Shown here: piece by piece, positions 18,006 through 63,375 of the stretch
Layout of the letters: each line of letters starts with the position of its first letter
Position numbering within the stretch: position 1 is the first letter of the stretch
Source: Panagrolaimus kolymaensis
Lineage: Eukaryota; Nematoda; Chromadorea; Rhabditida; Panagrolaimidae
Assembly (NCBI GenBank): GCA_028622995.1
Contig: JAJQJQ010000002.1
Span: forward strand, 8,184,001 to 8,248,000
Reading direction: 5' to 3'
DNA length: 64,000 nucleotides
Program-made: the position numbers and the translations under genes
Notes under the pieces: model-generated
The model's database searches: none
Told to the model about the DNA's origin: nothing
What the model saw: only the letters and a program-made list of their open reading frames with translations

Positions 18006-20735
18006 ATGTTAAAACATATTGGAATTGAGCCACATTGGGGAAAAGTTTCTATTTATGATCCATTAAATCAAGAAATTACTACTATCAGTTTAAATTATCG
18101 TAAGTTTTATTTATTAATTATTTAAAATTCTGGAAAAATTATTTTTATTGAAAGAAAAGTCCAAAGTTCAAACGTTTTTCTAAAAGTTCTCGGCGAAATT
18201 CCAAAGTTATAAATTTTGAAGTTTTCGCTGTTCAACCCAAAATTTTTTATAATTTTTTTAGATTGCAATTATCCAAATGAATGCAATCATTTATTTAAAA
18301 TAATTAATCATACAATTGGTAAAGTTGGAATAGGCCAAGTGGTAATTTGTTGTGATGGATCAGATTCAAATGATTTTCTTAAAGCTTGCATAAAAGCCGC
18401 TAAAAATAATGGATATTATTCAGTTCATCTAATTTCAAGAGATGTCGCTTTTTATATTCAAGCTGTGGAACAAACGATGAATCATGTATTTGAAAAAATG
18501 ATGGTTTGTATTATTTATGTTTATGGCGAAAATGGAATATGTATGCAAATTTGGCTTGTTGAAAATCAAGGCGCTGTTTTGCAACATTCTTTTGTTACTG
18601 TAAGTTTTTTAAGAAAATTTTTAATCTAAAAATATTTTTATAACTTTCCAGGACAAACGCGAATCCACGGATTGGGAAATATTAAAACAAAAAATAAATG
18701 AAACACAAAAAACTTTACCAATTTTTATTGTTGAATCGTGTTTGAAAAAAGAATTTACTCATTATTTTCAAATAAATCCAAAAATATTTGAATATTCATT
18801 TCAATTTTTTTCTGAAGCCGCAGTTACTAAAGCTCGAATAAATTCGGGTGACATAATTGTTGCAACTCGAAATGCTCAAAATACTCTTGGGAAAGATATA
18901 ATTTTAAATATTGCGGATGAATATATTTATGAAATTCCGAAAGCCATTGAATTGCCTTTTAATGAAAGTATTAGTGTCACATTAACGAAAGAAACAGAAA
19001 ATTTATGCAAAGTTTGTTTGTTTGAGATTTTTAAATTTAAAAAAAGAAATGTCGAAGGCTAAATATAATATTTTTAGGTAAATGAAATTTTCCGTGAAAC
19101 TTTTACAAAAGTTTATAGTCTTCCAAAAAATAAGGCCATTGATATTTTATTTTCAATCAACGAAGATGGAATTTATTCTTTTACAGTTGAAAATTCTTTA
19201 GGTTAGTTTCTTTATCAAAATAAAAATCTTTTGGTCCTATTCTTCCCTCGAAAATTATTATTTTTACTTTTGCGAATCTCACAAAAAAATCACAGACAAA
19301 TTTTGTTTCTTTATTTATTTCAATTTTTAATTTTACAGAAAAAATGATATTTTTCGTTTTTACATTTTTAGTACGAAACCCTTCTCAACCAATTCGAACA
19401 CAACCTTCATTGATTTACCAAGCATCTATTAACAACGACAGCAATATTTATTTATTACCCGAGCCCCACTCATTTTATGATTGCCCTCATCCAATAATAG
19501 GAATAAATTTTGGAACAACTCAATGTTTTGCTTCCATAAACTCCGATGAAGGCGGCTTCGATGTTATTTCTTTGGATCCAATATCTTCGGGAAATTCTTT
19601 AATTTCTTTTGTATCTTATAGCGATGAGAAAACGAAATGTGGTGAAGCTGCAATTTATAAAATTAGAGATGAATCAAGTTATACTATTTTTGATTTCAAA
19701 AGAATTTTGGGAAGAAATTTATCCGAAGTTAAAGTGGATATTCTTTGGAGATTTGAACTCGCCGAACGAGAAAATGGAGTCGAAATTGGTGTGAATACAT
19801 ATTCCGGGAAAATGTGGTTAACTCCGGATGATGTTTGTTCAGTTATTTTTAAGGCCATTAAAGATGCAGCTGAAAAAGAAACAACAAATTCCAAACTCAC
19901 TGATGTTGTGATTACTGTGCCTTTGTCATACAATAAAGAAAAAATTAATGCTATTTTTAATTCGGCTAAAGCAGCAGGTTGGGATACAGTATATATAATG
20001 TTGGAACCCATAGCAGCGATATTAGCATATAATTTTAATTATCCCATTCAAGATCAAAACACTATTTTGCTATTCGATCTTGGAGGCGGACATTTAAATA
20101 TTTGTATTGCAACCATACTTGGAAGTTATTTGCAAGTTCTCAGCAGTGGATTTGATGATAATCTTGGTGGTCGAGATTTTGATGAACTTTTATTAAATTA
20201 TTTTACAACAATTTTATTAACTAAATTTCAAATTGAAGTTATGGCTTCTGAAAGGAAGAAATTTAAATTAATGGAAAAATGTCAAAGAATTAAACATAAT
20301 TTATCTTTGAGAATGGAAGATAAGTGAGTTTCAAAGCCATCCAAAATTGTTACACAAAGTATTGGAAAATTTGAATTTTGTTTCTTAATTTTGTAATTTT
20401 TTAGATTAGAAGTAGATGATTTTAATTCAAACATCGATGCAGACATTGAAATCAAGCGAAACATTTTTGAAATAATTTCGAGTGAATTACTTGCACGAAT
20501 CAAAACTACCATCAGTAACACCCTCCTCGAAGCTAATTTCGATCCAAATCAAGTTCAACAAATTTTAAAAATAGGTGGAGCAAGTAAAATGCCAATGATT
20601 ACAAATTTATTACAAACAATATTTCCAAATTCGGATATAATTTCTTTGAATGATTCAGAAAAACTTGTATCAAATGGAGCTTCATTGTATGGTTGCATGC
20701 TTAAAGGAGTTTCACATAAACCTTCTTTTTATTAG
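18006..20735 (+). CDS. Tandem Hsp70-like protein B (pseudo-Hsp70 + Hsp70 nucleotide-binding domain)
   Basis: Exons 18006-18099, 18262-18599, 18652-19011, 19078-19201, 19372-20323 and 20405-20735 give 732 residues. The first ~330 residues track Hsp70 in order: HIGIEPHWGKVSIYD (phosphate-1-like), GQVVICCDGSDSNDF and VHLISRDVAFYIQAV (where Hsp70 has AVITVPA and NEPTAAAIAYG), EAAVTKARINSGD (where Hsp70 has GAAVQAAILSGD), then IDILFSINEDGIYSFTVEN, matching the beta-sandwich strand of the substrate domain. Catalytic glycines are missing, so this half is a pseudo-domain. A second nucleotide-binding domain follows (GINFGTTQCFA, FDLGGGHLNIC, NLGGRDFD, KIGGASKMPMI) and the protein ends there. An alternative acceptor at 19338 is also in frame and would add about 11 residues. 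Paralogue of the gene at 8-2559. Confidence 0.82.
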
Positions 20736-24111: not shown

Positions 24112-24899
24112 ATGGCTCAAACTGCAATGAACTTCTTTCAACAATACTCTCAAATGATGCTCATGAATTCGTTGGCTGCTGCTGGTGGAAAATATCCTAT
24201 TGATTTTAAACCTACAATGTTTGGCACTCCATCATCGCCTCTTCATCCAGTTTCTCCAAAACAAGAATCAGTAAGTTTATTTGTTTGATATTCATTTAAC
24301 TTTCAAATATCCATTTTTAGGAGCCTTCGATATCTCAAGAAGACCTCATGGCTTCAATTACTGCTTTGGTCAATATTTCGAACATCTTCGCTGCTTCTTC
24401 AACTATCAAAAATGAAGTGTTTTCTTCAACATCATCTTTGCCACCAAAAGCATCAACACCAACGAAACATCAATTGACGACTCCTTCTCCTCAAAGTGAA
24501 TACAAAGTTGCTGTCAACTCTGAATCCTCGAAACCTCTCCAAGATTGGATGATGGCCAACCTTCGACATCCTTATCCATCATCTCAAGAAGTCAGACAAC
24601 TTGCTCAACAAACGGGATTCACAAATAAGCAAATTCGAAATTGGTTTACCAACTCTCGTCGACGATATGAAATGAAGGCTGGAAATTCGCCTCTTCCATG
24701 GACAAAGAAAGATGCTCCTAAGATTGCTCTTGCTCAACGACGTTCTTCAACTCCACAATCTCAAATGACCGATGAAGTTTCTCCAATGAAGTCTCCAAAA
24801 ATTGAAATTGATGAAAATGTTGTTGATAATTGTTTTGAACTTCTTTCAATGAAATCACCGAAAGCTGAAATCGTCGACAATGAAGTTGATGGTCTTTGA
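24112..24899 (+). CDS. TALE-class homeodomain transcription factor
   Basis: Exons 24112-24270 and 24321-24899 give 245 residues. The homeodomain (about residues 130-180) keeps the atypical three-residue loop and KN-type core: LQDWMMANLRHPYPSSQEV, LAQQTGFTNKQIRNWFTNSR and RRRYEM. HPYP and WF-N-RRR are diagnostic of TALE proteins (Meis/Pbx/Iro groups), which bind DNA in the nucleus, often as cofactors of Hox proteins. The N-terminus is Ser/Pro-rich; the C-terminus has two SPMKSPK/SMKSPK-like repeats that could be proline-directed phosphosites. No MEIS or PBC domain is visible, so the subclass is unclear. It appears to be a fast-evolving, shortened TALE gene. The start is placed at the Met beginning MAQTAMNFF. 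Confidence 0.88.
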
Positions 24900-25768: not shown

Positions 25769-26584
25769 ATGGTTGATGCTGAGTTTATTCATCCAAATCC
25801 TGCAACTTTCAATTCAAATTCAGTTCAACGTCAATATTTTTCCCTTCCATTTGGGATTATTTCTTATATTAATGAAAATCCCAATTCTGCCAATGGACTT
25901 CAAAAGTTACAAAAAACTTGTAAATACTTTTTTAAACAAAATAAAATTATAATTATTCCCATCGAAGTTGTATATTATCAGGATTTATTTGTTAGTGGAT
26001 TTTATTACGAAAAAAAACTAAAATTTTATTTCAATAATTTTAAATATTGGTTGACAGATGCTTTACAAGCTGAGCATTATCAATTAGAAAATTTATTATA
26101 TATTTATCGTTGCAACCTTTTCGCTTTACATCTTTTCCATCAAAATTTAACTTTAAATGAAATGGATTTTCTTGTGAATGGCGGAAAAATAAATACGTTA
26201 TGGTTAGTATACGTAAATATTCGAAACGATGATGGTGATTTTGTTTCATGTGACTGTATACTTGAAAAAGTACCCAATATTTTGTGTTTACATTTCGACC
26301 CTGAAAGCGAAATCTTTACCTCCAAAACTTTTAAGAAAATGAATTCTTTAAAATTTAATTCGAAATTCGAGCGTTTCTGCTTTAATATTGGTAACTTCGC
26401 TGCAGATTTAGATTTGTCACTTTTATGTATTTTTATCAAAAACAATTCAGATAAACGTACCTACTTTGGATTTGGACTTTTTATGAATAATGCTGAATCT
26501 TATAAGCAAAATTTGCTATCTACTATCGATGAGATGTTCCAAGATTGGGATGAAGAAGAAAAACCCGAAATAGAAATTTATTAG
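25769..26584 (+). CDS. Lineage-specific protein with F-box-like N-terminus, copy 1
   Basis: A single-exon gene of 271 residues. It aligns along its whole length with the protein at 43719-44564: HPN at the start; LPFGIISYINENPNS; GLQKLQKTCKYFFKQNK; then WxLxEKVPNIL, EIFTSKTFKKMNSLKFNSKF and a shared DWDEEEKP end. The 35-residue N-terminal unit (hydrophobic, Pro, two helices, KxCKYFF) resembles an F-box, which would recruit targets to an SCF ubiquitin ligase; the rest looks like an F-box-associated domain. This is inference from pattern and the match is weak. The lack of introns and the dispersed copies suggest a retro-duplicated or expanded family. Confidence 0.65.
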   Translation: MVDAEFIHPNPATFNSNSVQRQYFSLPFGIISYINENPNSANGLQKLQKTCKYFFKQNKIIIIPIEVVYYQDLFVSGFYYEKKLKFYFNNFKYWLTDALQAEHYQLENLLYIYRCNLFALHLFHQNLTLNEMDFLVNGGKINTLWLVYVNIRNDDGDFVSCDCILEKVPNILCLHFDPESEIFTSKTFKKMNSLKFNSKFERFCFNIGNFAADLDLSLLCIFIKNNSDKRTYFGFGLFMNNAESYKQNLLSTIDEMFQDWDEEEKPEIEIY

Positions 26585-32834: not shown

Positions 32835-33857
32835 ATGACAAAAGCGAACACATTCATCCTTTGTTTACTTATTGGATCAGCTTTGGCTGATATCGATCCA
32901 CATATGTTTGTACCCGTTGCTGGATTCACATCAGCTTTTTATTCAAATGCCATTGATACTGGTGGACCAACTAATGGAAATAATTATGTTTGTGATACTC
33001 AACATCTTTATCAATCACAAGTAAACTTTTTTTAATGGGATTTAAAGCTTGAAAATGAAATTGCTTTTTAGGTTGTTTTTAGCACTGCCCTTGGAATTGA
33101 TTCAAATTTTTCATGGCAAAATTCAACTTTACTTTACACTGAAGTTGATAAATTCCTTTCAGCATCCATTGAAAATTATGTTAAAACTTGCCAGTAAGGA
33201 TTATTCGAAGTTTAATTTGCTTGTTAATGTAATTTGTTTTAAAGAGCTCGAACAATATTCTTCCAACAAATGGGTTCCACTTATGATGATTGCACCAATC
33301 CCTTATATTTAACAAGTTTACTCAGCCCAGCTGATAATATTTCTTTATCCTTTGCTTACAGCGCTCTTTGGAAACAACTTGATTTCATTTGCAATGCAGG
33401 ATTAGATAGTAAGTTTTCGAGAATTTTGTTTACAAAAAGGTGGAGCAAAAATTATAAAATTTTTTGCGTTTTTAGTTGGTCTCCAATCATTCAAAGATAT
33501 TATGAATGTTTATGGACAACCTGGAGCAGCTGCATGTTACCAAAATTTTGGAAATAGCATGGCCGGAGATCCAACTCAACGTTGCACGTAAGAAATACCT
33601 TTAATTTTTGTATTTTTTTTCTCGTCTAAACAGTTTTTGTTGTTATTAATTTTAGTTATCTTGGCACATACATGCTTTGCATTCAAGAAGTTTATATCTC
33701 ATACGCGGGCAATCGACCAGTGAGATTCTAAACCTTTTTTTTTCTCTAAAAAATAAACACTGATTTTCAGAATGGTTGGTGGATTTGTGAACGAGCTCGA
33801 GTTGGTTATGGTATTGGTTGCCCCAGTCTTCGTTGCAACGTCCTTACAACACCATAA
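32835..33857 (+). CDS. Secreted cysteine-rich protein (DUF19-like)
   Basis: Six exons, 32835-33020, 33072-33193, 33245-33408, 33476-33587, 33656-33719 and 33771-33857, join in phase to give 244 residues. A signal peptide (MTKANTFILCLLIGSALA) precedes a domain with spaced cysteines: YVCDTQ, VKTCQA, YDDCTN, FICNAG, AACYQNFG, RCTYLG, MLCIQ, WWICER, GCPSLRC. Even cysteine number and an all-exon-spread helical pattern resemble the nematode DUF19 (T20D4.11-like) secreted family, but this assignment is tentative. The acceptor before exon 3 (TTTTAAAG) is weak. Extracellular; role unknown. Confidence 0.75.
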
Positions 33858-33956: not shown

Positions 33957-36102
33957 TTATTTCCATGGCATACTATATTGTACATCAAGTTTAATTTCAA
34001 CACCATTCATTTTTGCAACAGCTGTAAGAGTTCCATTTAGTTCGACGTTAAGGGTTATTTTAGCTTTGACACTTCCAGCTTTACCTATAGGTAAATCAGG
34101 AATTTCTATTTCAGCGATATATTTATCTTTGAAAATATCGTCATCGATACCTTCATAAATCTGAAACATTTTTTTTGAATTAAACGTTTTTGTCTTTAAA
34201 CACACGAGGCATGAAAGAGAATATTCTTAATAACGGCGAGTATTATAATGAGTTTTTGGTTGCGAGATTAGCCGATATTTTAGACATAAGTAAAAAAATA
34301 CTTGCCGGTATTAACGCCGTTCGTTGATTATCTTCAGATGTTTTTAATTCAAAAGTTTCTTTACAAGGAATTTCAGTATTATTTTTTAAAATCGGTTGAA
34401 ATTTTCCACCTGCAACTTCTATGCCTATACTCATAGGCAAAACTTCTCGAACATCCAATAGGCTCACTTCTGGCTTCATTGAAGCTTTTAAAATGGATGT
34501 CGCAAACATAGTTGCTCCAACCGCAACAACTTCATCAGGATTTACAACTTTAGAAAATTTTGATGAATGAAAAATATTTTCTAACATTTTCCCAACCATT
34601 GGCATTCTTGATGCTCCACCAACAAATAGGACGTGATCTATTTCAGTTGCAGATAATTTGGCGCCGGCAAGTGTATCAATGCAAGCCATTTGGAGCCTTT
34701 GAACTAAATCTTTACTCATATTTTCAAATTCGCTTCTTTTAAGGTGATAATCTTTGGCTTCTTCGTGGATATCTCCAAGATTTATCCTAAAGATATAAGT
34801 AAAGTATTTGCGGTGGAAATTTTTTGATTAAAATATTTTTGATCGTAGTATAAAATACTTGAAAAGTTAGACTATGTTTAAGCTAATTTAATATTACTTT
34901 CATAAATTTCTTTGACCTGATAAATAAAAATAACTTACGGCGTTTCTTCACTAATACTCAAAGCTTCTCTAACACTTTGAGCCATGGTAGTCATTTTAAA
35001 TTTTTTCTTTTGATTCAAACTTTGAATTGTTTCTTTACCAATATCATTTTTTAATTTTTCTTTCATCCAATTTACAATTAAACTATCAAAATCTCTACCA
35101 CCTAAATGTGAATCACCACCAACAGCTTTAACTTGAAAATATTTTTTGTTAATTTGCATTATGGTTACATCAAATGTTCCACCACCCAAATCAAAAACAA
35201 ACAATTTTTCATCTTCCTTGTATTTATGTTCGATTCCATAAGCTATAGCAGCTGCTGTAGGTTCAGTGATAATTTGAATAACATCTAATCCAGCTAATTT
35301 TGCGGCTTCTAAAGTAGCTCGTTTTTGGTCTTGTCCGAAATAAGCTGGCACACTTATAACTGCTTTTGTCATTTTACATGCCAGTCGCTTCTCCACAGAT
35401 TCTTTGATGCTTTTTAATAATCCGCTGGAGACTTGAATGGGCGATAAATTTCCAATCATATCATTCACAAAATATTCGCATAATCTTTTATCCTTTACTT
35501 TTTTAGATTTTATATCAAAAGTCCATTCTGATCTAAAACCTTTTATAAATGTATCGGTGATTTCTGTGGCTAATAATCGTTTGGAATCTGAAAAAAGAAA
35601 GGTCTATTAAATTTTTTTCTTTGAATTGTGAATGGATGCAAAATACAAAATTTAAAATGCTTTTATGTCAATCTTTACGGTATTCGCGTCACATTAAAAC
35701 TCATCGCTTTTATCAAAGTTTTTTGTTGGTGTTAAAATCTTACCATAATAAACATTAACTGGATTTGCTCCAGTTTTATCTTTAGCTGTTTTTCCAACAA
35801 AACTTTCTTTTCCATCATAATAATAATAGGATGGAGTTGTTCGAGCACCTAAAAATCCATTCATCATTTTTAGCTAAATTTAGTTTTAAATAAGCTTTAA
35901 TTTATCAAATTAAAAGTTTAATTACAAAGTTAGCTAACAACAACAACAACTTTTTTTGGGTTTAATCCAGCTTAACTTAAACCATTTACTTACTCAAATC
36001 ATTTGCCACAACATCAACCTTTTCATTCCACCAAACTGCGCCACAAACATTCGTAGTACCAAGATCAATTCCAAATGGAATTTCTTTATTATTAGTCGCC
36101 AT
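33957..36102 (-). CDS. Hsp70-family protein C, lid-less, with a GC-AG intron
   Basis: Exons in gene order: 36102-35994, 35848-35744, 35587-34939, 34786-34306, 34160-33957; 515 residues. The nucleotide-binding domain is close to canonical: FGIDLGTTNVCGAVWW, AVISVPAYFGQDQKRAT, EPTAAAIAYG, FDLGGGTFDVT, HLGGRDFD, VLFVGGASRMPMV, NPDEVVAVGA. A substrate-binding beta-sandwich follows (VLPMSIGIEVAGG ... DIFKDKYIAEIEI ... KITLNVELNGTL), but the protein stops there, ~125 residues short of normal, lacking the helical lid and C-terminal EEVD. The last intron works in phase only with a GCAAGT donor (34305-34300), a known minor GC-AG type. It is the most normal of the four Hsp70-like genes and probably an active cytosolic ATPase. 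Divergent from the gene at 36435. Confidence 0.9.
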
Positions 36103-36434
36103 TAAAAAAAAATCTTTTTTTCTTTCTCTTCCTCGAGTTTTTTCCAAATGTATAAATAAAAAAAGAAATAAGCTTTTATTGATTCATTTTTCTTTGCTTT
36201 TTTTCATTTTGACTTTTTTTGAATCCTTTCCTTATCAGTGAAAATGGCTGCTTTTCACCCTCTTGAATATTTTTGGTTGTTGCTGTTTTCTTATTTTTAT
36301 ACTGCAAGCAACGATTTTTTTTTTGTCGTTGTTGTTGTTTGATATTTTATTTATTTATTTATAAAATATTTTTCCTTCCTCACTTTCTGAAATCTTAGTC
36401 ATCATTCAAAAAAAAGGTGAAGACGAAAAAGAAA
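36103..36434. promoter_or_regulatory. Shared 332-bp promoter of two divergent Hsp70-like genes
   Basis: The two start codons face away from each other across this segment. It contains CCTTTCCTTATCAGTGA at 36225-36241, an extended GATA site identical over 17 bases to one upstream of the sphingomyelinase gene. I see no convincing run of heat-shock elements (three or more alternating GAA/TTC units at 5-bp spacing). Poly-T/Poly-A tracts flank the site. Confidence 0.5.
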
Positions 36435-38334
36435 ATGTTAGATGATCATCAATACATTGAATTATCGCCTAATATTCCTAATTATCGATTAGATAATAAA
36501 CCTGTAATTGGAATAGATTTAGGAACGGAATATTGTTATGCGGGACAATATATTCAAATGAATAATGGAAAAAGTTATGTTAAAATATTAAAAATTGGAG
36601 GAAATGGTAATAAAAGTTTTTGTTAGTTTTAAAAAAAGATTAATTTTGCGAAAGACATAGTTTTGAAGCACCCGAACTTGGTTACGCATACATTCAATCA
36701 AGCTTATCACAAAACATAAATATTTATTTTTTTAGGAAGAGATAGGCTATGGTCAGGTATAGCATTCGAAGGAAAAACTATACATGTTGGTGAAGCAGCT
36801 AAATATGAATTAAGTATACGTAAGCAAGAAAAGAAACCATTGAATGGAGCTTTTCGTAAGTTTCAAGAATGGAAAATTAATTTTCTGGTTCCTGAAGCCA
36901 TTTTCTTTAACCTCCAAACAATTTTGGCTTTTCAGGAATTCGTGAAATAACTGGAATGAAATATGATAAAATAAATAAAAAATCTCTTGATTATACTATA
37001 AACAACGATGACATTGGTCGAGCTGCCATAGTTATCACAGAAACAAGGGATCCTGTTGTGATATCGGGTTTAATCCTTCCTGAAGAGGTTAATAATCTCT
37101 TCGTTCAAAGCATCATTCAAGATTTATCAAGTGTTTATAATTTTATTCCACAAAATATTGTTATCACACAATCAGATAAAATGAAAGAAATTGATTCAAT
37201 TATTATGTATGGAGTTTTTAAGGTAAACAAATACAAAAAAATGTTTTTAGTTTTTTTCTTTCATCAGCAGCTTCGAAACCAGGATGTTAGGGCTTTCAAA
37301 AAACAAATGGGCAAAAATAAAAAACATAGATCCAAGCTTTCAAGGTTTGGCTCATATTTCTGTAAATCAACCATTAATTTACGAATTTCGCATTCAACAT
37401 TATATTTAACTTTAATCAAAATTTTGTTACTAAACCCTAAAATATTTTCAGCAATCCAATACCCAAATCGATCGAATTGTAAAAGATTGTGAAGCTGCAA
37501 TTTGTGCATACGGTTTACAAGTAATTGAATCAAATTATATTGTATTTTATTTTGGTGAAGCAGATAGTTGGGGAACTTTAATAGAAAATGGACGAATCAC
37601 ATCACATGTGAGAAATGGAATTTGTGGTTTACTAATTGATACGATGACTCGACAATTAAAGGGAAAAGAATTAAATGATAAAACTAAAAAACTTTCAAAT
37701 ACTTTAAATGAAATGTTACCAATTTTGGTTAAACAATGTTCAAATAATGTGGATGGAATAATTTTAGCTGGAACTGATATATTTCGACCCATGGTTCAAC
37801 AAATGCTTGCATTTTGGGAACCTCGATTTAAAGTTTATTCAAATATTCCAACGGAAAAAGTTATCGTTGTTGGAGCTACCGTAATTGCTGCTAAACGATT
37901 ATGCGAGTTTATTAAAGTTTGCAAAAAAATAATTTTAGACCTATCTAATTTTAGTTGATCAAATTCAAAGCAATCCATTAAATGGAGTCATACATGAAAT
38001 GGCTCAACTAACGCGAAGTTTGAGTTTATACAAGTAAAAAAATTTATCAAAAAACTTTTTACACCTTTAAAATTTTTTTAGTCGCGGTGATGCTTCTGAA
38101 GTATTTCAACCTCCTCCAACTTATGAATCCATCGTAAATAATACGAATAATAATCGACGAGAAAATCGTGAACGAGCTCCAACAAATACTCCACCAATAG
38201 AATTAAGTTCGCCCAGAGAAATCATGGCACCACCTCGATCACCTAATTGGGAAGCCGCTGAACCATTATTGGATAATAATATTGGCGATAGAGAAGAAAA
38301 TGAAAGGATGGTATTGGAAGTCACCAGACTATAA
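36435..38334 (+). CDS. Degenerate Hsp70-like protein D with PPxY tail
   Basis: Clear exons: 36435-36606, 36736-36855, 36936-37222, 37452-37916; probable end exons 37939-38033 and 38082-38334. The N-terminus has a good phosphate-1 loop (VIGIDLGTEYCYAG) and GEAAKYEL-like spacing. Later landmarks are ruined: where Hsp70 has FDLGGGTFDV there is IVFYFGEADSWGTL, and the adenosine motif is GIILAGTDIFRPMV; EKVIVVGATVIAA follows. The tail is Pro/Asn-rich with PPPTY (a WW-domain ligand), followed by basic and Ser-Pro segments. ATP hydrolysis is therefore unlikely; an adaptor role is possible. Two points are uncertain: a small exon may lie within 37223-37451, and the intron 37917-37938 would be only 22 bp, so that junction may be wrong. 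Confidence 0.68.
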
Positions 38335-38929
38335 ATAAAAAAATGAAATATCCCCTCTTTTTAAAAACTGAAATTACTTAATTTATATGCATAACTTAAT
38401 ATCTCACAAAATAAATAAAAGCAATTGAAAGCATAAATCGTGCAAATATTAAGCATTTAATTTTCTAAACAAATAACACCTTTCATTTTTTTACCAAATA
38501 AAAAACCCATTTTTTGGAGGCTATCTGTTTATGTTTATTATTGAAAATTATGCGTCAAAATTTATAATCAACTGCGCTTTCTCTTATTAAGTATTCACTT
38601 CTGGTTTTTGTTGGCGAAGAAAATAATAATTTCATTAAAAGAACATTTTTTATTTGCTGAATATTTTACTTCATACAAACACTTTGAAACAAATCAGAGA
38701 AACAATATTCAAATGTCCTTTTTTCATTTTTTTATTCGCAATGATTTGGTTGATAAATGTTTAAAATGGCTAAGAAAATTTTGATAATGTTTGCTTTTTC
38801 CTTATTATCGTTCCATTGCTTTTTTTAATCGATTAAAAACTTTATCAGTTAACAAAGAAAAAACCCACTAAAAACTCTCAACAACATATTTGAAGTTTAT
38901 TTTGCTAATATTTTTGCATTCGTTGAAAA
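38335..38929. other. Intergenic between two chaperone-like genes
   Basis: AT-rich, with AATAAA signals near 38330 and 38411 for the upstream gene. No coding signal. Confidence 0.45.
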
Positions 38930-40834
38930 ATGTGCGAAGAATTTTCAAAGAAAGAATTTACTCGTCAATCTTTAGAGTTGCTCGGAGAAAGAAATGAAGT
39001 TGTTGATAATGTAATTAATAATGCATTAACATTATTTTTCGGTAGCGAATCTGAAACCATAGTGGCAAAAGATTTTTATGAAGGAATGTAAGTTTTATAA
39101 AATTGGCTATTTTTCTTTAATAAAAGCAAAATTTTCAGTAATCACATAACCATAATTTCATATTACCTAAAATTACAATCTCATCCAAGTCCACCAACAT
39201 CAATTGAAGAATCAAAAACTCCATTCATATTTATTGGAAGCTCAAACAAACTTTGTAAAAATTATGTAACTAATTTATTTGAAACTTTATTTAATCGAAA
39301 AATTATTTCCATTGATTTAAATTTTATCAAAAACATTGAAGCATTAAAAGGTTCAAAAAGAAATATTGGAAAAATTTTACTTGCTTTAATTGAAGCCGAA
39401 TCAATTGGGTCGATTCTTTTATTGATTGAAAATATTGATAAATGTCAAGGTTTGCTATTTTCTTTATTGATTGATAAACAACAAAAAAAGGCGGTTGTTG
39501 GACTTTTTTAAATTTTTGTTTTTGCAGATTTATCAATTAAAACTTTTATTATCCAAATTTTTAATCCAACTATTAGTTCGGTGTTTTGTGATTCTTCAGC
39601 TGGATTAAATTTTAATTTAAAAGGTTGCATTATTGCTGGAACAGCTTTCAATGAAAATTCAGTGGATGCTTTGATAAGAAAAAATGCTACAATAATTAAT
39701 GTTCCTGAATTACCCGAAATAAACAAAATCGATAAAAGAAAAAATACAGAAAATCATCTTCAAAAGTTTGTTCAAAAATAAATAAAAAAATTTCGATAAA
39801 AAAACGAATGCTTTAGGAATTCATTGCCTTCTCAAATATCGTTGAGTTTTGAGAATAAATTATCTCCAAAATCAATGGAATATTTTTTGGTTGCCATCAT
39901 TGAATCCAAGAATTACCAAATCGAAATTGGAAATTCGTTGATCGATAAATTTGGGATTGAAAAAGAAATTCAAAAAGTTTTAAAACGAGCTTATGATCAT
40001 CAGAATCAGAATGGCGATATTATTGAAGCAATAAAGAGGGAACTAAAAATTCTTCCGCCATATCCAAATCTTGAAAGATGGCTTTCTGCGAGCACTTCAC
40101 GAGAATGTAAAGCTTTAATTTTTGGTGGAGATTCAGTTCATTCAATTATTATTAATGGAGATTTTATTAAATTTACGATTCCTCAAACAAATGAAATAAT
40201 TTTTATTCAAATAAATCAAATTGTTTCTGAATTTTCTCTTCCATTTGAAACTCATTTACCAATGCTAAAATATTGTTTAATGGAAGCTTTTGTTGATGAA
40301 AATTGTGGGGACATTATTGCAGAAAATATTGAAGCAGCTTATTCTTCAACATCAAATCATCAAATTTATGCAATCTCTGATGCCATTTCTTTGCAATTAT
40401 CTAAAAAGTTGAAATCGCCATGGACCAGTTTCATTACTCCAAGCATTGAAAATCCAATGTTTGGATTAAATATTTCCGCGGAATTCGTTCATCTCCAATT
40501 ACCTTTTCAATATGGAATGAAATATTCGATCATTGCTTCGAAACTAACTTTGCCTTTAACTATCGAATCCGTTTTTGCAACTAAATCCAAAATAACGGGA
40601 AACATAGATTCTTCGAAAATGCAGAAATTCGAAGAAACAATCTTAAAGACGACAAATTTTATAAATCTCAGAAACTTTCTTACTGACGCTTTAGAAGAAC
40701 TTTTTGAAAGTAAAGAATATGTTTGTCTTATTGGATACCATATTGAAGACATTTTTATTACTAATTTTTGTTCAATTCCTTATATTCTTATTCAAATTAA
40801 AGATATAAAAATCTTAGCATTTATAATAAAATAA
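38930..40834 (+). CDS. Degenerate AAA+ (Clp/torsin-like) protein
   Basis: Exons 38930-39087, 39139-39449, 39528-39765 and 39817-40834 give 574 residues. The order follows the second ATPase module of Clp proteins: ELLGERNEVVDNVINNAL (compare the GQ-x-EAV start), FIFIGSSNKLCKNYVTNLF at the Walker A position but without the GKT, SILLLIENIDKCQ at Walker B with the Asp-Glu pair changed to Glu-Asn, IIQIFN and FNLKGCIIAGTAFN at the sensor-1 strand, then YQIEIGNSLIDKF and DIIEAIKREL like the small helical subdomain. The last ~250 residues are unrecognised. With both nucleotide motifs broken it should not hydrolyse ATP. The remote match is by pattern only, so Clp, torsin or another AAA+ group are all possible. 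Confidence 0.55.
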
Positions 40835-41083
40835 AAGAATTTATAGGATTATGTTTATTTATTTTTTTATCAGCTTACTTATTTGCATTATACATAAGTA
40901 CAGTATTTTTATAAAGCTTAAGGGTCTTGGGTTGTTTGCTGCTTTTATCAATGTCATTCAATTTTTTTATCTTTATAAGTATAAAAAAATGAAACGTGGA
41001 AAAAAAGAATAATTCTGTCACCATATTGATTGGAACGAAAGTAATTCAAAAAAATTGCTTTAGTTTTTAAACCTTTCTTTTCC

Positions 41084-43308
41084 ATGGCTAAAAAACACTT
41101 GCGTAACTTTGTAAGAAAATTAATATGTATTTTTCCAAACAAGGAAAATGCAAAATCTTTAGAGGTAAGTATCGTTGCCCTTTGTTTTATTTATCAACAA
41201 AAAACTATTTAGGCGCTAAAAGATGTTGTTGAAGATAAATGCATAAATGTTGTAAAAGTTATTTCTGAAATTTTTGAAGGTGATGCTGAAACCCTAATTT
41301 TAATTCTTCATGAATTAACAATTCAAGAAGAAAAGTTTGGATCCCGTGACCATTCTCCTCAATGGAAAATGCTTAATGATTTGATTGATAATAAAACTGT
41401 AAGTAAGAATATTTGTTCCAAATGAAAGCTTGAAACTATGGTATGGCAGAAACCGACAAATCAATAATTTTACATAGTTAATTCCAAACTTCATAACAAC
41501 AGATAAAAATATTTCAGGCCTTTAAAAATTATGCTGACGGACTTGTTAAAGAAAAAAAATATGAAAAAGTTGTGAATGCAATTTCTGAAATTTATGCGGG
41601 TGATAGTGAAAGCCTTTTATATATCACCAATGAGTTAGGTTTTCAAGAAGAAAAAGATGGATTTCACAATCATTTACCACAATGGAAAACGCTATACGAT
41701 TTGATTGATAACAAAACTGTAAGTAAGAATATCTGTTCCACATGGAAGCATTTTTAAAATTTTCGTGAAAACCGGCAAATCAATAATTTTACATACATAA
41801 TCAATTCCAAACTTCACCACAACAACAAAATACACTTTTTACTAAAAATATTTCAGGCCTTTAAAAATTATGCGGACGAAATAGTTAAAAAAAAGAAATA
41901 TGAAAAAGTTGTGGGTATTATTTCAGAAATTTATGCTGGTAATAATGAAACCCTCACCTTAATTCTGCTAGAGTTAGCAGCTTTAGAAGAAAAAGCTGGA
42001 TCTCGAGATCTCTCACCCCAATGGAAAATGCTTAGTAATTTGATCCAAAATAAAACTGTAAGTAACGAATATTAATTCAATATAAAAAGCTTGAAATTTG
42101 AAAGGTAGTGACAAATTTTCATCGATCCAAACTTTCATGCAAAAAATACTTTTTAATATTTCATAATTTCAGGCCTTTAAAAATTATGCTGACGGACTTG
42201 TTAAAGAAAAAAAATACGAAAAGGTTGTGAGTGTTATTTCTGAAATCTATGCGGGTGATGGTGAAAGTCTCTTATATATTACCAATGAGTTAGCTATTCA
42301 AGAAGAAAAAGCGGGATCTCGAGATCTTTCACCCCGATGGAAAATGCTTTATGATTTGTCCGGTAAAAAAGATGTGAGTTTTTAACTAAAAATGTAACAA
42401 GTGTGAAAGCTTGACAAAATAAGCATAAAATAATCGACCCCTAATCTTCATTCAAAAAAATTTTAAGATTCAAAAAGTTTTAGGCATTCAAAACTTATGT
42501 GGATGGAATTATTAAAAAAGCGAGAGAGAAAAAAACTCGAGAAATCCTTCAAGATGCAAATAAGTTTATAGAAAAAATAACAAATGAAAGCATAACAAAC
42601 TCTAATGTTATCAATACTATCGATAATAATCGGCAACTTATTTCAACTTTATTCCCCGGTGGCGCAATTATTTGGTTAAAACTTCCATATTCAGCAAAAG
42701 TTTCAATATTAAACTTTGTTTCGACGACTGTTCAAAACCTGAAACAGCTTAGCATTTTAGCGTCAAATGGAAGCATAAACGGAGTCATCGCTAAAATCTC
42801 TCTTCTTGCAAGCCATGGAAAATTAGTATGCGTTGGATTAGCTGCTATCCCAATCATGTATGAAACATTTCGATCCATTTACTTATGGTATCATGGAAAA
42901 ATTTCTGGTAAACGAGCTGCGAAAGCTGTTACGCAAGTCAGCCTTTCAACAGCTTGTGGATTTGGTGGAGCGGTAGCTGGCGCAGCTATAGGAGGAATAT
43001 CTGGTCCTGTGGGAGCTATTATTGGAGGAATTGCCGGTGGAATTGGAGCATCTATTATTGGCGGAGCTATTGCAAAATCCTTATGCAAAAAAATATTTAA
43101 TCTTCCAAAAACTCAAGCTCTTGAAGATGCATATAAATATCTTGGAATTCATCATAAAGCATCAAATTCAGAAGTTATTGCAGCATTTAAAAAGAGAGCA
43201 TTGATGGATCATCCAGATAAAGAAAGTGGAAATCATGAAGCTTTTTGTAAATTACATGCATATATAACTATCATCCGTATTTCACGCGGTGAAATGGTAT
43301 TGAATTAA
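41084..43308 (+). CDS. Repeat-exon, glycine-rich membrane, J-domain protein (HPD intact)
   Basis: Exons 41084-41164, 41213-41398, 41518-41718, 41857-42057, 42173-42373 and 42484-43308, all phase 0, give 564 residues. Exons 2-5 each encode one copy of a ~65-residue helical unit (AFKNYADGLVKEKKYEKVV ... ISEIYAGD-ES ... WKMLYDLI-NKT). A predicted membrane region follows (LASHGKLVCVGLAAIPIMYE), then a Gly/Ala-zipper run (AVAGAAIGGISGPVGAIIGG). The C-terminus is a J domain: LEDAYKYLGIHHKASNSEVI, AAFKKRALMDHPDKESG, with the HPD motif needed to stimulate Hsp70. It may anchor Hsp70 at a membrane, with the repeats binding clients or partners. The end of the domain is near the stop codon, as in Tim14/DNAJC15-type proteins. 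Family not recognised as a whole. Confidence 0.82.
41518..42373 (+). repeat. Three tandemly duplicated 201-bp exons with their introns
   Basis: Exons 41518-41718, 41857-42057 and 42173-42373 are each exactly 201 bp and strongly alike, and the preceding exon (41213-41398) is an older copy. Introns share ACTGTAAGTAAGAATAT at the donor, AAATCAATAATTTTACATA in the middle and ATTTCAGGCCTTTAAAAATT at the acceptor. The duplication unit is therefore exon plus intron (~330 bp). Confidence 0.9.
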
Positions 43309-43718
43309 AAAAACCATTAAACTATTCTACGATATTGTTGTATGTATATCTCTTTAACTTTAATTTTGTGAAGAAGTTTTCCATAATTAATTTTGAATAA
43401 AAAAAAAATCAGACATTTATAAAATAAATACACTAAAAATTGACCTGCTAGGTTCAATAATAAAGAAAAATAAATTATCCGAGAACGCTTTCGCGCTTTT
43501 TTTTCTCACACAATGAAGGTGGACGATTTAGAAAGAGCACACATAAAGAAAGTAATCATAATTGGTTGCAAAGCGAAAATGATTCATTTATTGATTTATT
43601 CAACCAACATATTTGTTGCATTTTTATGGTCGTTGTTGTTATTGCCATTGCTGTGCTATAAATTTCTAATTTGTTGTGCTTTTTTTGGTTTGTAGTTATT
43701 ATTATTTTTGTTTAAAAT
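43309..43718. other. Intergenic, no gene seen
   Basis: AT-rich. A 60-codon open frame at 43513-43695 is hydrophobic and unsupported by splice or start context. Confidence 0.4.
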
Positions 43719-44564
43719 ATGACTGAAAATCAACTAGAATCAAATGTTATTCACCCAAATTCAACAACCTTTGAATCACTTCTTCATCAAAATTTTCCTT
43801 TTCCACGCGACTTAATTTCTCATATTACTATGAATCCTCTTTCATCTGATGGACTTGAAAAGCTTCTAAAAAGTTGTAAATATTTTTTTGCCAAAAACAA
43901 GATTGTTGTCGTCAACAAAAGTGTTCATCAAAACCCAGATTCAGTTGACCAGTTTTATTATGAAAATAAAGAAATTTATCTGAATCTAGAAAATTTTGTT
44001 TATTGGGTAACTGAATCACTCATATTTTGGAATAATACTTCGATAAACTTTTCTAAAGTCTTTTATCAATGCAATCTAAAAGCTTTACAAAATCAAAATC
44101 AAGTTTTGAGTTCAAGTGAAATCGATTTGTTGTTGAATGTTAAAAACATAACATGGCTATCGTTTAAAAAAATTGAAATCGAAAATGTCGAAGAAGGGTT
44201 TATTCCGATTGAATGGATTCTTGAAAAATTACCAAATATTTTATATTTTTATTATTATTCAAAAAATGAAATATTTACTTCAGAAAAATTTAAAAATATG
44301 GCATCTTTAAAATTTAATTCAAAATTTAGGCAATTCTCTATTATCATTGATAATTTGTCTGATGATACTGATTTCACGCTGTTGTGTGAATTTATTAAAA
44401 AGAATACTGGCAGGTTTGATGATGCAATTAACGATGGACCATCTCATTTTACATTTACGTTTAATGTTGCAAATTCAGAACATTGTCAAACTATTATACG
44501 ATCCTCTTTTGATTTGGAATTTCAAACTTGGGATGAAGAAGAAAAGCCAATTTTGTTTTTTTGA
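43719..44564 (+). CDS. Lineage-specific protein with F-box-like N-terminus, copy 2
   Basis: A single-exon, 281-residue paralogue of the gene at 25769-26584. Shared landmarks in order: FPFPRDLISHITMNPLSSDG, LLKSCKYFFAKNKIVV, YYENKEIYLNLENFVYW, WILEKLPNILYFYYYS, EIFTSEKFKNMASLKFNSKF, and TWDEEEKP at the end. The strand/helix alternation of the C-terminal two thirds suggests an F-box-associated (FBA/FTH-like) fold that selects substrates. It sits between two J-domain genes, which may be coincidence or reflect a cluster concerned with protein quality control. The family is not identified with certainty. Confidence 0.65.
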   Translation: MTENQLESNVIHPNSTTFESLLHQNFPFPRDLISHITMNPLSSDGLEKLLKSCKYFFAKNKIVVVNKSVHQNPDSVDQFYYENKEIYLNLENFVYWVTESLIFWNNTSINFSKVFYQCNLKALQNQNQVLSSSEIDLLLNVKNITWLSFKKIEIENVEEGFIPIEWILEKLPNILYFYYYSKNEIFTSEKFKNMASLKFNSKFRQFSIIIDNLSDDTDFTLLCEFIKKNTGRFDDAINDGPSHFTFTFNVANSEHCQTIIRSSFDLEFQTWDEEEKPILFF

Positions 44565-45024
44565 AAAATAAATAAAAAGAAATGTTTTTTGGTTTTCATT
44601 CTTATTTTTTTTTTAATTAAAAACAGTATAAATTATTATTTTTAAAATTACCTTTCTTTCTTTACCCATAAACAATTTTAAAAAACAGAGAACAACATTG
44701 CATTGAAATATTGTCCCCTAAGGAAAAATATTATTAAACTGCTCATACGTACAATAACCAAAACACAATGTGTGTTTTTTTATAAATAAAAATGTACATT
44801 TGCTCTCTTTAAAGTTAGCTAATGTAAACAACACTTGCCACTCCAGCCCCTTTTTAGTTTTATACTTATTTTTATTAAACGTAAACAAAGTAGCTTTTTT
44901 TAGCTTTACCGATTATTAGAACTTTAGTTACATGTGTTATAAAAAACGCTTAAAAGCCGCATTTTAGTTAATTCATAATTATTTTAAAAAATTATTCTTG
45001 TTTACTTTTTTTTTATTTTGCGAC
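44565..45024. other. Intergenic, no gene seen
   Basis: AT-rich spacer between two genes on the same strand; no feature supported. Confidence 0.4.
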
Positions 45025-46065
45025 ATGGATGTCAAATATCAACGTGTTATTGATTTGCTTTGGAAATTTTATAGCAAGGATATCGAAAGCTATACACTGA
45101 TTCTTCGTTGCTTGTCTGATGATTTAAAAAAATTTAACTTTTTTGAGGAATCATCTCACTGGAATCGACTTGCCTATGATGTTGACAATGAAGGAGTAAG
45201 TAAGCTTTTATTTTTAAATATATCTACTAAAATTGCGTTTTAGGACTTTAAAATTTTTGGGGATGGCCTTGCAGCTAAGCAAAGAAGTAATCCAGGAAAA
45301 TTTCTTGAGGATGTCATTAAATTGATTGCTAAAAAAGATAAGATTCGAAGTACAAATTTGGGTGAAATTACAGGCAGATACTGTAACCACGTAGCATATT
45401 TTTTTGGTGATGGTTGTGAAAAAATGTTGAAAAATCTTCCAGAAATATCCATAAAAGGCATGGATGGATATTTATCAAAATTAGGAAATTTTGCTGCCAA
45501 CGTTTCTGAAAAATTTGGGAATGGGTTCGTTAGTTTAGTCGCACAAATTTCGAGCTTCGCTAAAAATGGAAGATTGGGTAGTTTAACGCTTGCGCTTATT
45601 CCAATGAATCTTGAAACTATTCGAGCTGTTAATTTATGGAATAATGAAAAAATATCTGGAAAACGGGCAGCTGATTGCGTTTCCAAAGCACTAATAATTT
45701 TTGGTGTTGGTGCTTTAGGCGCTTATTTAGGTGGAACTTTAGCTGCATTTACTGGAAATCCAACCATAACATTTTTGGGTAATTTAACTGGTGGCACGCT
45801 TGGATTATTTCTTGCAAATGGTTTGGCTCATTATTTATGCGAAGCAATCTTTAATTTGCCTCCAACTCAAGCCCTTGAAGATGCATATAAATATCTTGGA
45901 ATTAGCCATCTTGCACCTGATTCTAAAGTTGCAGCTCGATTTCTTTTTCGATTTGAACTTGACCATCCCAACAATACATTAAGTGGATCTCAAGAAGCTT
46001 TTTGTAAATTAACAACTTATATGGCTTTAATTCGAGCTCATCGTGGTGAAACTATTAATGAATAA
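45025..46065 (+). CDS. Glycine-rich membrane, J-like protein (HPD changed to HPN)
   Basis: Exons 45025-45195 and 45244-46065 give 330 residues. It is a paralogue of the gene at 41084-43308 with only one N-terminal repeat exon (RVIDLLWKFYSKDIESYTLI ... HWNRLAYDV). The matching middle (SSFAKNGRLGSLTLALIPMN, NLWNNEKISGKRAADCVSKA) and Gly-rich stretch (GVGALGAYLGGTLAAFTGNP) precede a J-like domain, LEDAYKYLGISHLAPDSKVA followed by RFELDHPNNTLSGS. The HPD tripeptide is HPN here, and the Lys after it is lost, so stimulation of Hsp70 ATPase is predicted to be lost. It could still hold the same membrane position or clients. Shared PPTQALEDAYKYLGI shows recent common origin. Confidence 0.8.
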
Positions 46066-57028: not shown

Positions 57029-58514
57029 AACACTGCTCCTGGCGCCGACAATATTCCATCAAAAGCTGTCAAAACAACAATTTCAAGTTTTGCTATAAGA
57101 CTTGCTGATGCTCTAAATGGATTACTACTCGGAAACAATCTGCCTCCTGAACTACTTCATTCGAAAACCATCTTGCTTCCCAAGAAAGGAAATAGAAACA
57201 ATATTGAAAACTATCGTCCTATTTCACTACTTCCTGTCTTGTATAAGCTGATGACTCGAGTACTTACTCAACGTGTAATGGATGCTGCTGAAACTTCTGG
57301 TGCTCTTCCTCCTCAACAAGCTGGATTCCGAAGATGTTACTCAACTATTGATCATATACATACCGCAAATCAACTATTTGAAAAGTGTCGTGAGTTCAAT
57401 TTGCCTCTTTTTGTTGTTTTTATTGACTTCAAAAAAGCATTTGACTCCATTGAACTTTCTGCTCTATGGAATGCTCTTCAAAAATTTGGTATTGATCCTG
57501 GTACAATTGAAATCATCAAAATGATCTATGCTGGTGGTACATCAAGTATAAATATTGGCTCTTCATCTATCAACATCAATGTCCAAAAAGGTGTAAGACA
57601 AGGAGATACGCTCTCGCCTATCCTCTTTGCTCTTACCCTTCAAACTGCTCTTGATCTTGTCAACTGGAATGCTGGAATCAACATCAATGGAAAAAAACTA
57701 GGATATCTCACTTTTGCTGATGACATCATGCTTTGCTCTCATTCATTGGAAGGTCTCCAATGTTTGCTCAACCAAGTCGCTGGAACTTCTGCTACTGTTG
57801 GACTCGAAATCAACGTCGATAAAACAAAGTGGATGACTAAAGCGAATACTCCTGATGGAACTTTACTTCTTGATGATCTACAAGTTGAATTGGTAAATGA
57901 ATTTATATATCTCGGTCAACTGATCTATTGGCCTTCAAAACCAAAACGATTCAACAAAGAAATCTCTCGAAGAATATCTGCCGGATGGAGCTCTTTCTTC
58001 AAAGCGAAGAATTTGCTGATGTCAAGAAGAGTCCCAATGAACTTGAAAAGAAAATATCTTCATCAATGTGTGCTTCCTGCCATATTGTATGGATGTGAAA
58101 CCTGGGCTTTGACTAAATCTGAAGAAGATCGTCTTGCTGTAGCTCAACGAAGAATGGAAAGAAGAATGCTAAACGTGAAATTAATCGATCAACATCCTCG
58201 TGAATGGCTTCGTGAAAGAACTGGTCTCAAAGATTTCGTTCATCAAGCAAGAAAAAGAAAATGGAATTATCTTCGTAAACTCCTGCTGCTTCCTGACAAT
58301 CGATGGAATCGTTTACTGACTGAATGGAAACCTGCTGGCAAAAGACCTCTTGGACGTCCTCCAACTCGCTGGATTGATGACATTATGAAACATACTCAAG
58401 AAAAAAATTTCCAACGTCTCAATGTCATTGCTTTGTCTGATTCGTGGTGTCGTTTGTTAGAATCTTTCGTCCTTCGAGACAGATAAAAGATAATAAATAA
58501 ATAAATAAATAAAA
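57029..58514 (+). mobile_element. 5'-truncated RTE-like non-LTR retrotransposon
   Basis: One open frame from about 57029 to 58486 encodes reverse transcriptase: NTAPGADNIP, RPISLLPVLYKLMTRVL, QAGFRRCYSTIDHI, VVFIDFKKAFDSIE, VQKGVRQGDTLSPILFAL, LTFADDIML (catalytic Asp pair), and a C-terminus with GRPPTRWIDDI typical of RTE-type elements. The endonuclease domain expected upstream is missing, so it is a 5'-truncated copy. The 3' end is a short (AAAT)n tract at 58490-58514, as in RTE elements. The frame is uninterrupted, so insertion is fairly recent. It ends directly against the VWD-lectin gene, whose upstream exons are absent. Confidence 0.88.
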
Positions 58515-62598: not shown

Positions 62599-63375
62599 AT
62601 GTATGAAAGAGAAATATTCGGTTCAATTGTTTTACTCATTTTTGGTGGAGTTTTATTTCGTTACATAAAATATTGGTTTTGGCCAAATTTTCCTTCTTCA
62701 ACAGATAAATATCAAAAAGCTATGCAACAACTTTGTTATGTTATTAATACGGATAGCTTTATGTTATTTCCTATTATAAATTTTTTAGTAGAAGAAGAAA
62801 AAAAGTGTGGTTCACGAGAAAAATGTCCTTATTGGAATATGCTGGCTGATTTAACAAAAAATAAATATGTAATTTTAAGGCTTTTTTATTTAATAAACAA
62901 CTATTGAAATTGTGATTTATGTTTTTAAAGATTATGCCGAGGCTCTTTATTGTATTCAACAAAAAATAATTACAGAAAAACAAGACGTTTTAATTAACAA
63001 ACGCGAACTTGGTAATAACATTAATTTTTTGTCTTTTGAGAATATTTTTTTGATAATAACTTGCCGCCAAATATTTTAGCGATAGACAAATATAAAAAAG
63101 TTGCTGTTAAAATATCAAAAATGCCTAATAATTTGATTATTTTACTTGCATTAGCTCAAGATGAAAAATTTCAAGGAAGTCGAGAAAAGAGTGGACATTG
63201 GAATATGCTGGCTGATTTAATAGATGAACCAAATGTAAACATAACTTTTTTTTGTCGTTTAATTATTTTGCGTTTTTTATAGACTTTTTTTGAATATGCC
63301 CGAACTTTTGGTGAATCTTTTTTGCGAAAACAAGCTTCTAAACAATCGGATGATAAAAGCGGCGATGAATATTAA
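62599..63375 (+). pseudogene. Membrane-anchored relative of the J-protein repeat family
   Basis: The N-terminus has a membrane anchor (FGSIVLLIFGGVLFRYI). Two copies of the helical unit found in the 41084-43308 protein follow: EEEKKCGSREK-PYWNMLADL-KNK and DEKFQGSREKSGHWNMLADLI. Pieces are 62599-62871, ~62929-63011, ~63082-63234 and 63283-63375, the last encoding FFEYARTFGESFL and a charged tail. The first junction is out of phase by one base (phase-0 donor TAT|GTAATT, phase-1 exon after TTAAAG), so either it is decaying or the splice model is wrong. No J domain is present. The second and third junctions are consistent. Confidence 0.55.

Follow-up and report, generated by a model that had tools for sequence, protein, structure and literature searches.

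HSPA13/STCH and other truncated Hsp70s possess a nucleotide-binding domain (NBD) without a full substrate-binding domain (SBD), and non-canonical metazoan Hsp70s are reportedly the subject of a published paper. Closer to the sequence analyzed here are the 'Hsp70 expansions' of H. mephisto and Panagrolaimus, which concern the same nematode family and carry the same 'Hsp70' annotation, and which the relevant passages of PMC6872716 and PMC6889759 present as counts of Pfam Hsp70 proteins or domains. The main text of PMC6872716 never uses the term 'substrate-binding', neither the SBD nor J docking is discussed in the available sections of PMC6889759, and a literature search covering titles and abstract openings returned no report of SBD-less, J-uncoupled panagrolaimid Hsp70s. 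For DnaK, the pertinent passages of PMC7289447 state that R167 lies opposite the J-domain HPD loop and that J stimulation becomes ineffective when this NBD arginine or its partners are altered. In the same passages and in those of PMC5519331, DnaK R167H is given as a suppressor of DnaJ D35N, and the latter source, in its pertinent part, describes the region of the NBD against which helix II of the J domain docks, the region that contains strip 204-222.

Here, a window of 64,000 nucleotides of AT-rich DNA from Panagrolaimus kolymaensis (contig JAJQJQ010000002.1, positions 8,184,001 to 8,248,000, assembly GCA_028622995.1) was analyzed for six predicted genes, A to F, lying within positions 33957-46065 of the window, and for two further Hsp70-like genes, H1 and H2. 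A preliminary description had read this neighborhood as a possible lineage-specific Hsp70/J/Clp disaggregation network, perhaps with inactive members. The new and more general point that emerges from the comparison is a panagrolaimid clade of predicted Hsp70s that lack an SBD and present a changed J-docking strip. Spliced gene models were obtained with a small splice-aware predictor followed by a hand check, which replaced the automatic models of H1, where exons had been skipped, and of C and D, which had been merged. In the resulting models all frames are open, gene E is single-exon and the others are multi-exon, with splice sites that are mostly consensus.

Hsp70-like genes and their panagrolaimid relatives

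The two Hsp70-like genes said to lie elsewhere in the window were recovered as H1 (8-2559, forward strand; exons 8-101, 150-838, 886-1086, 1142-2013 and 2226-2559 in the hand-checked model) and H2 (18006-20735, forward strand). H1 encodes 729 amino acids, comprising an N-terminal half that is probably degenerate Hsp70-like and then a complete NBD, without an SBD; H2, with 743 amino acids, shares this architecture, and both proteins stop 9-10 residues past the NBD match. Gene A (33957-36102, reverse strand; exons 36102-35994, 35848-35744, 35587-34939, 34786-34306 and 34160-33957) encodes a 515-residue Hsp70 (PF00012, E 1.1e-124 in Pfam) with an NBD at residues 7-388 and the beta part of the SBD (SBD-beta) at 403-511. 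The protein stops after SBD-beta, the alpha-helical lid profile gave no match and neither a lid nor a C-terminal tail was recognized, in agreement with its earlier characterization as a lid-less Hsp70. What appears to be a GC-AG intron follows exon 34786-34306, and close to the end of gene A a convergent gene model terminates, at 33857.

Gene A has an Hsp70 NBD with intact phosphate/Mg residues, being identical to DnaK at 11/11 positions on that side of the site (8, 10, 11, 12, 70, 171, 194, 196, 197, 199 and 201, in DnaK numbering), and its adenosine side is altered (E230R, E267Q, K270R). The J-docking strip aligns to DnaK without gaps in gene A, H1 and H2, and both R167 and N170 are replaced in 3/3: by Q and T in gene A, by H and P in H1, and by Y and L in H2; T173 is also replaced, by V in H1 and by I in H2. 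The net charge of strip 204-222 is +3 in gene A and 0 in H1 and H2. A long version of the H1 model was used for this comparison of docking residues and a short one for the SBD and lid scan reported below.

A search with H1 and H2 returned 1972 matches at E ≤ 1e-5. Examination covered the best 120, comprising 53 proteins labelled Panagrolaimus (davidi, ES5, PS1159) and 67 others; H. mephisto members fall outside this sample. Two proteins without a species label, P0020 and P0041, were left out of the comparison group because they lie inside the panagrolaimid clade in the tree, which reduces it from 67 to 65. The 53 Panagrolaimus relatives present the Hsp70 NBD fold and the ATP phosphate site: D8, G10, K70, E171, D194, G196, G197, T199 and D201 are all kept in 45/46 of those with letters at all nine positions, versus 64/65 of the others. 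R167 is kept in 2/51 Panagrolaimus proteins with letters there versus 62/65 others, N170 in 0/51 versus 65/65, T173 in 2/51 versus 64/65 and R151 in 1/52 versus 65/65, the commonest replacements being H (17), P (38), I (33) and K (40), respectively, and the mean net charge of strip 204-222 moves from -1.68 in the others to +0.96 in the Panagrolaimus set. An SBD-beta following the best NBD was found in 0/53 Panagrolaimus proteins versus 64/65 others, and a lid in 0/53 versus 59/65; P0026, also among the 53, shows a weak SBD-beta match ahead of its NBD, and 46/53 end no more than 25 residues past their last NBD match. Outside the Panagrolaimus set, 118 positions are shared with DnaK and conserved to 95% or more; 57 of these are retained by 90% or more of the 53 proteins, and 40 by less than a quarter of them, although for D85, which belongs to these 40, the figure rests on a single letter. 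At the level of aligned residues, gene A and the H1/H2 clade keep the phosphate/Mg site, H2 excepted, and have a changed predicted J-receiving surface; the predicted proteins of the clade sample carry no client-binding domain after the NBD, and gene A keeps the beta part without the lid.

The relationship of these proteins was assessed with two trees. In a quick tree of 85 rows (45 of the 53 Panagrolaimus proteins, 36 of the 67 others, A, H1, H2 and DnaK), H1 and H2 fall with panagrolaimid proteins with 99% support in the Shimodaira-Hasegawa-like approximate likelihood ratio test (SH-aLRT), although the branch of H2 is long. Gene A joins the panagrolaimid clade at 99/99 in a careful tree that was rooted on DnaK and built from 52 rows (26 Panagrolaimus, 23 others, A, H1 and DnaK), leaving out H2 and the long-branched P0008, P0022, P0040 and P0047; E230→R and E267→Q are common to gene A and this clade. 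If the grouping is right, gene A would be an intermediate, with its lid lost and its docking strip altered but its SBD-beta kept.

The N-terminal half of H1, H2 and their kin is likely a degenerate Hsp70. Aligned with hhalign against an ordinary Hsp70, using the corresponding half of the long H1 model, it is co-linear over 38-90 to 128-180 and 140-294 to 316-494, at probabilities of 14% and 3%, and in the confident structure model of P0011 the order of N-terminal strands and helices is compatible with a reduced actin fold plus a beta sandwich; fold searches aimed at this half returned results filled by the NBD. Other partner domains were seen in a Pfam domain scan of 10 of the 53 Panagrolaimus proteins, although these fusions come from automatic gene models and some, including the AIG1-NBD joins, may be artefacts. 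P0046 and P0052 (P. davidi, ES5), which sit in different parts of the tree, have an AIG1 GTPase domain ahead of the Hsp70 NBD, P0050 has two calponin-homology (CH) domains, P0038 has a spectrin-like repeat just under the Pfam cut-off, and in P0059 a truncated NBD is followed by a macro domain. The relevant part of PMC6872716 names AIG1 as the second family with an expansion in H. mephisto, and the AIG1-NBD joins would link the two.

Compared with cytosolic Hsp70s, the proteins described here share the NBD fold and the phosphate/Mg residues, and gene A also SBD-beta, but gene A is without the lid, R167 and N170, while H1/H2 kin have no SBD after the NBD and in some cases an extra, probably degenerate Hsp70-like N-terminal half. 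HSPA13/STCH resembles the clade in having an NBD without a full SBD; the panagrolaimid proteins differ in forming an expanded family, in their changed J-docking strip and in an NBD that usually lies C-terminal, behind variable N-terminal parts.

The neighboring ATPase-like and J-type genes

Gene B (36435-38334, forward strand; 451 amino acids) is similar to the Hsp70 NBD over its first half, with PF00012 at E 3.6e-6, above the Pfam cut-off, and Hsp70s in PDB from 1e-7. The MAFFT and phmmer registers disagree for this protein, and in the phmmer register, which was adopted, YFGEAD stands in place of the phosphate-2 loop DLGGGT and AGTDIFRP in place of the adenosine motif VGGSTRIP, which confirms the ruined phosphate-2 loop. 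One splice (37880/37939) is uncertain and skips the in-frame VIAAKRLCEFIK. The C-terminal tail (38082-38334) carries PPPTYES, a PPxY-type WW-domain ligand motif.

Gene C (38930-40834, forward strand) had been described as a Clp/torsin-like AAA+ protein with broken Walker motifs. It is AAA+-like and its motifs are indeed broken, Walker A reading GSSNKLCKN and Walker B LIENIDK, but the Clp affiliation is replaced by a Lon one: a Lon-type AAA+ module spans approximately residues 54-294 of 574, and a sequence search of PDB at E ≤ 10 matched Lon and no other entry (3m6a, E 0.0036). Similarity to E. coli ClpA and ClpB was not above shuffles, leaving a Clp/Hsp100 origin unsupported, and torsin, with which no direct comparison was made, gave no row in the PDB search at E ≤ 10. 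Gene C resembles LonA proteases (LONP1/LONP2, bacterial Lon) in its large and small AAA+ subdomains, most strongly from Walker B on (residues 130-245), and differs from them in its broken Walker motifs and in that neither the N-terminal part nor the serine-lysine protease domain is recognizable, the latter within the C-terminal 280 residues. NCBIfam gave nothing at E ≤ 10, Pfam listed only a chance-level Pou match, and no homologue of the last exon was found in viral contigs. The motif losses mark B and C as predicted pseudo-ATPases.

Of the two membrane J-type proteins previously announced, gene D stands. Located at 41084-43308 (forward strand), it encodes 564 amino acids in six exons, all of whole-codon length, and consists of four tandem repeats of 62-67 amino acids, one per exon, a glycine-rich hydrophobic stretch and a C-terminal J domain with HPD (PF00226, E 1.6e-7, 31.7 bits versus a cut-off of 27.8). 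A J fold is supported by the Foldseek comparison of its structure model with the Sis1 J domain (probability 1.00, root-mean-square deviation 1.4 over 54 columns), at E 0.13 and a model pLDDT of 47.7. The core is 50-51% identical to two relatives, P0001 and P0002, both of which retain HPD; PF00226 scores are 36.0 bits for P0002 and 26.9 for P0001, just under the cut-off. The ratio of non-synonymous to synonymous substitution rates (dN/dS) between repeats is 0.35-0.51 (6/6 pairs), which supports a real gene. Gene D shares with J-domain proteins the HPD, helices I-III and a hydrophobic glycine-rich region ahead of the J domain, and departs from them in having no helix IV, in the loss of most helix-II basic residues and in its exon-encoded tandem repeats. 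We liken it to the C-terminal-J membrane types DnaJC15/19 or DjlA, the last of which is also a weak NCBIfam match. Membership in the C19orf12 family was considered, given PF20721 matches to the glycine-rich stretch of D, P0001 and P0002 (E 0.0005-0.004); all are under the cut-off, other glycine-zipper models match P0002 beside PF20721, and the similarity was taken as composition. The repeat exons (41213-42373) are all phase 0, and the whole-codon lengths mean that any repeat could be skipped in frame; among the repeat introns, the first two compared are 71% identical and the other pairs 53-63%, figures that come without a shuffled control.

Gene F (45025-46065, forward strand; 330 amino acids), a paralogue of D with one repeat-like stretch, a glycine-rich region and a J-like end, does not qualify as a J protein in the same sense. 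It is 37% identical to the D core, reads HPN for HPD, leaving HPD in 3/4 aligned J-type sequences, and has lost the helix-II basic residues; neither Pfam (E ≤ 1) nor NCBIfam (E ≤ 10) lists a DnaJ match for it. Gene F is a predicted pseudo-J protein. Its HPN and the R167→H change of H1 form the same pair as the DnaK R167H suppressor of DnaJ D35N, probably by coincidence. The supposed third J-family relative (62599-63375, forward strand), in which several exons were read by eye, has an N-terminal hydrophobic stretch and two repeats of about 67 residues; it shares the D repeat and nothing else of D, no J domain being seen.

Gene E (43719-44564, forward strand), which belongs to no named family, lies between D and F and has a paralogue, also single-exon, at 25769-26584 (E 8e-52); the Pfam scan gave nothing significant for either. 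Elsewhere in the window are a long open reverse-transcriptase frame (57029-58483; PF00078, E 1.4e-36) and a KN/TALE-type homeobox (24321-24896; PF05920). Among the matches listed, Panagrolaimus proteins are the closest labelled relatives of the Hsp70-like and J proteins of the window, and the family assignments exceed chance. Hsp70-like genes number 4 among the 22 automatic gene models of the window versus approximately 0.15 expected at the H. mephisto rate (107 proteins in the largest Hsp70 group, of 16,186 loci, as given in part of PMC6872716), a rate that belongs to another species and ignores local duplication, so that clustering beyond chance is suggestive only.

Weighing the explanations

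The idea of a lineage-specific set with inactive members is borne out, since B, C and F have lost catalytic or docking motifs and H1 and H2 fall with panagrolaimid proteins. We consider it probable, from sequence, that the cluster comprises lineage-specific, fast-diverging descendants of proteostasis genes that make up no working Hsp70/J/Hsp100 machine, with gene A and the H1 kin as J-independent switches. Several observations weigh against this account. The grouping of gene A rests on the long-branched DnaK root, its own branch is long and the bootstrap is not quite settled; an approximately unbiased (AU) test does not reject gene A with ordinary Hsp70s (p 0.13), and these are also its nearest rows by path and those of highest identity (38%). 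The clade was sampled as the best 120 of 1972 matches from one search with an SBD-less query, the comparison group contains no canonical panagrolaimid Hsp70s as a control, and 9/53 models have no letters at G341 and may therefore be truncated. Gene B retains the R167-equivalent arginine in the phmmer alignment, although without an intact ATP site, and that of H2 is partly damaged (D8N, T199H, D201N). The assignment of N170, T173 and R151 to the docking or interdomain surface is presumed by us, R167 being the position with support from the cited papers. Finally, the adenosine side of the clade is changed (E230→R in 46/50, E267→Q in 34/47); E230, E267 and T344, all among the 40 rarely kept positions, presumably lie near adenosine, and the nucleotide pocket is thus altered there with the phosphate side intact. 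The clade likely binds ATP, but this is not certain.

A genuine local chaperone network, in which A, D and C cooperate on clients while B and F serve as adaptors or decoys, would be in keeping with five genes of proteostasis-linked families within 12 kb, with the HPD of D, and with a gene A that retains its phosphate/Mg site and SBD-beta, lid-less Hsp70s being still able to bind clients; we nevertheless judge it unlikely. Gene C is derived from Lon and not Clp, so the Hsp104/Clp analogy fails, no homologue of it was found at E ≤ 0.01 among 7996 candidates scored, R167 and N170 are lost in A, H1 and H2, F reads HPN and B has no intact ATP site; the disaggregation network first proposed is not sustained. 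Long open multi-exon frames with mostly consensus splice sites, the dN/dS of the D repeat exons, the identity of the D core to two proteins elsewhere with HPD retained, and the phosphate/Mg site kept in the H1 clade sample speak against mere decay, that is, a pseudogene graveyard in a region of gene turnover. Such decay appears rather unlikely to us despite the degenerate motifs of B, C, F and H2, the doubtful splice in B, the nearby reverse-transcriptase frame and the close duplicates represented by E and its copy. We regard as very improbable a compensated private docking code in which the H1 type pairs with HPN J proteins such as F. In its favor, H1 has H at R167 and F has N at D35, H is the commonest R167 replacement (17/51), and the R167H/D35N suppressor pair is stated in the relevant parts of PMC5519331 and PMC7289447, but N170 and T173 are changed too, F has also lost its helix-II basic residues, the ES5 J protein P0001 retains HPD though ES5 has many altered Hsp70s, and no SBD is available for coupling in the clade sample.

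Proposed function and implications

Under the account we favor, of diverged descendants acting as switches, the replacement of R167 and N170 in A, H1 and H2 means that classical docking with the neighboring J proteins is not expected, and the published effects of changing the NBD arginine suggest that J proteins do not drive A, H1 or their kin in the usual way. Having no SBD, H1 and its kin could not run a client cycle. An ATP-dependent shape change would remain, and its most plausible reader is the N-terminal half or another protein acting as partner, so that these proteins may operate as J-independent, client-free ATP-gated switches, gene A perhaps holding clients weakly, with output through the variable N-terminal halves or through binding to other proteins. 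Gene D may still recruit ordinary Hsp70s encoded elsewhere to a membrane, and F would compete or partner with D as a dead copy; F, B and C could act by binding only. The genes would adjoin because the region is rich in duplicating families, rather than as one complex.

More tentatively, and with considerable doubt, panagrolaimids may have turned the Hsp70 ATPase into a large family of J-independent, client-free switches in which the NBD forms the C-terminal end and the N-terminal parts vary (degenerate Hsp70, AIG1 GTPase, calponin-homology, spectrin-like), serving as stress or immune receptors comparable to NLR or GIMAP proteins in other lineages; the published heat and drying 'Hsp70 expansions' would then be largely non-chaperones. 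Genome papers that count Hsp70s by Pfam domain interpret large numbers as additional capacity for refolding. Should the expanded proteins of panagrolaimids be without an SBD and the J-docking contact, that reading would be wrong for at least this clade, and heat or desiccation tolerance would have to be explained in some other way. The combination of a conserved phosphate/Mg site with a changed J site would offer a natural test of what an Hsp70 ATPase does without its co-chaperone.

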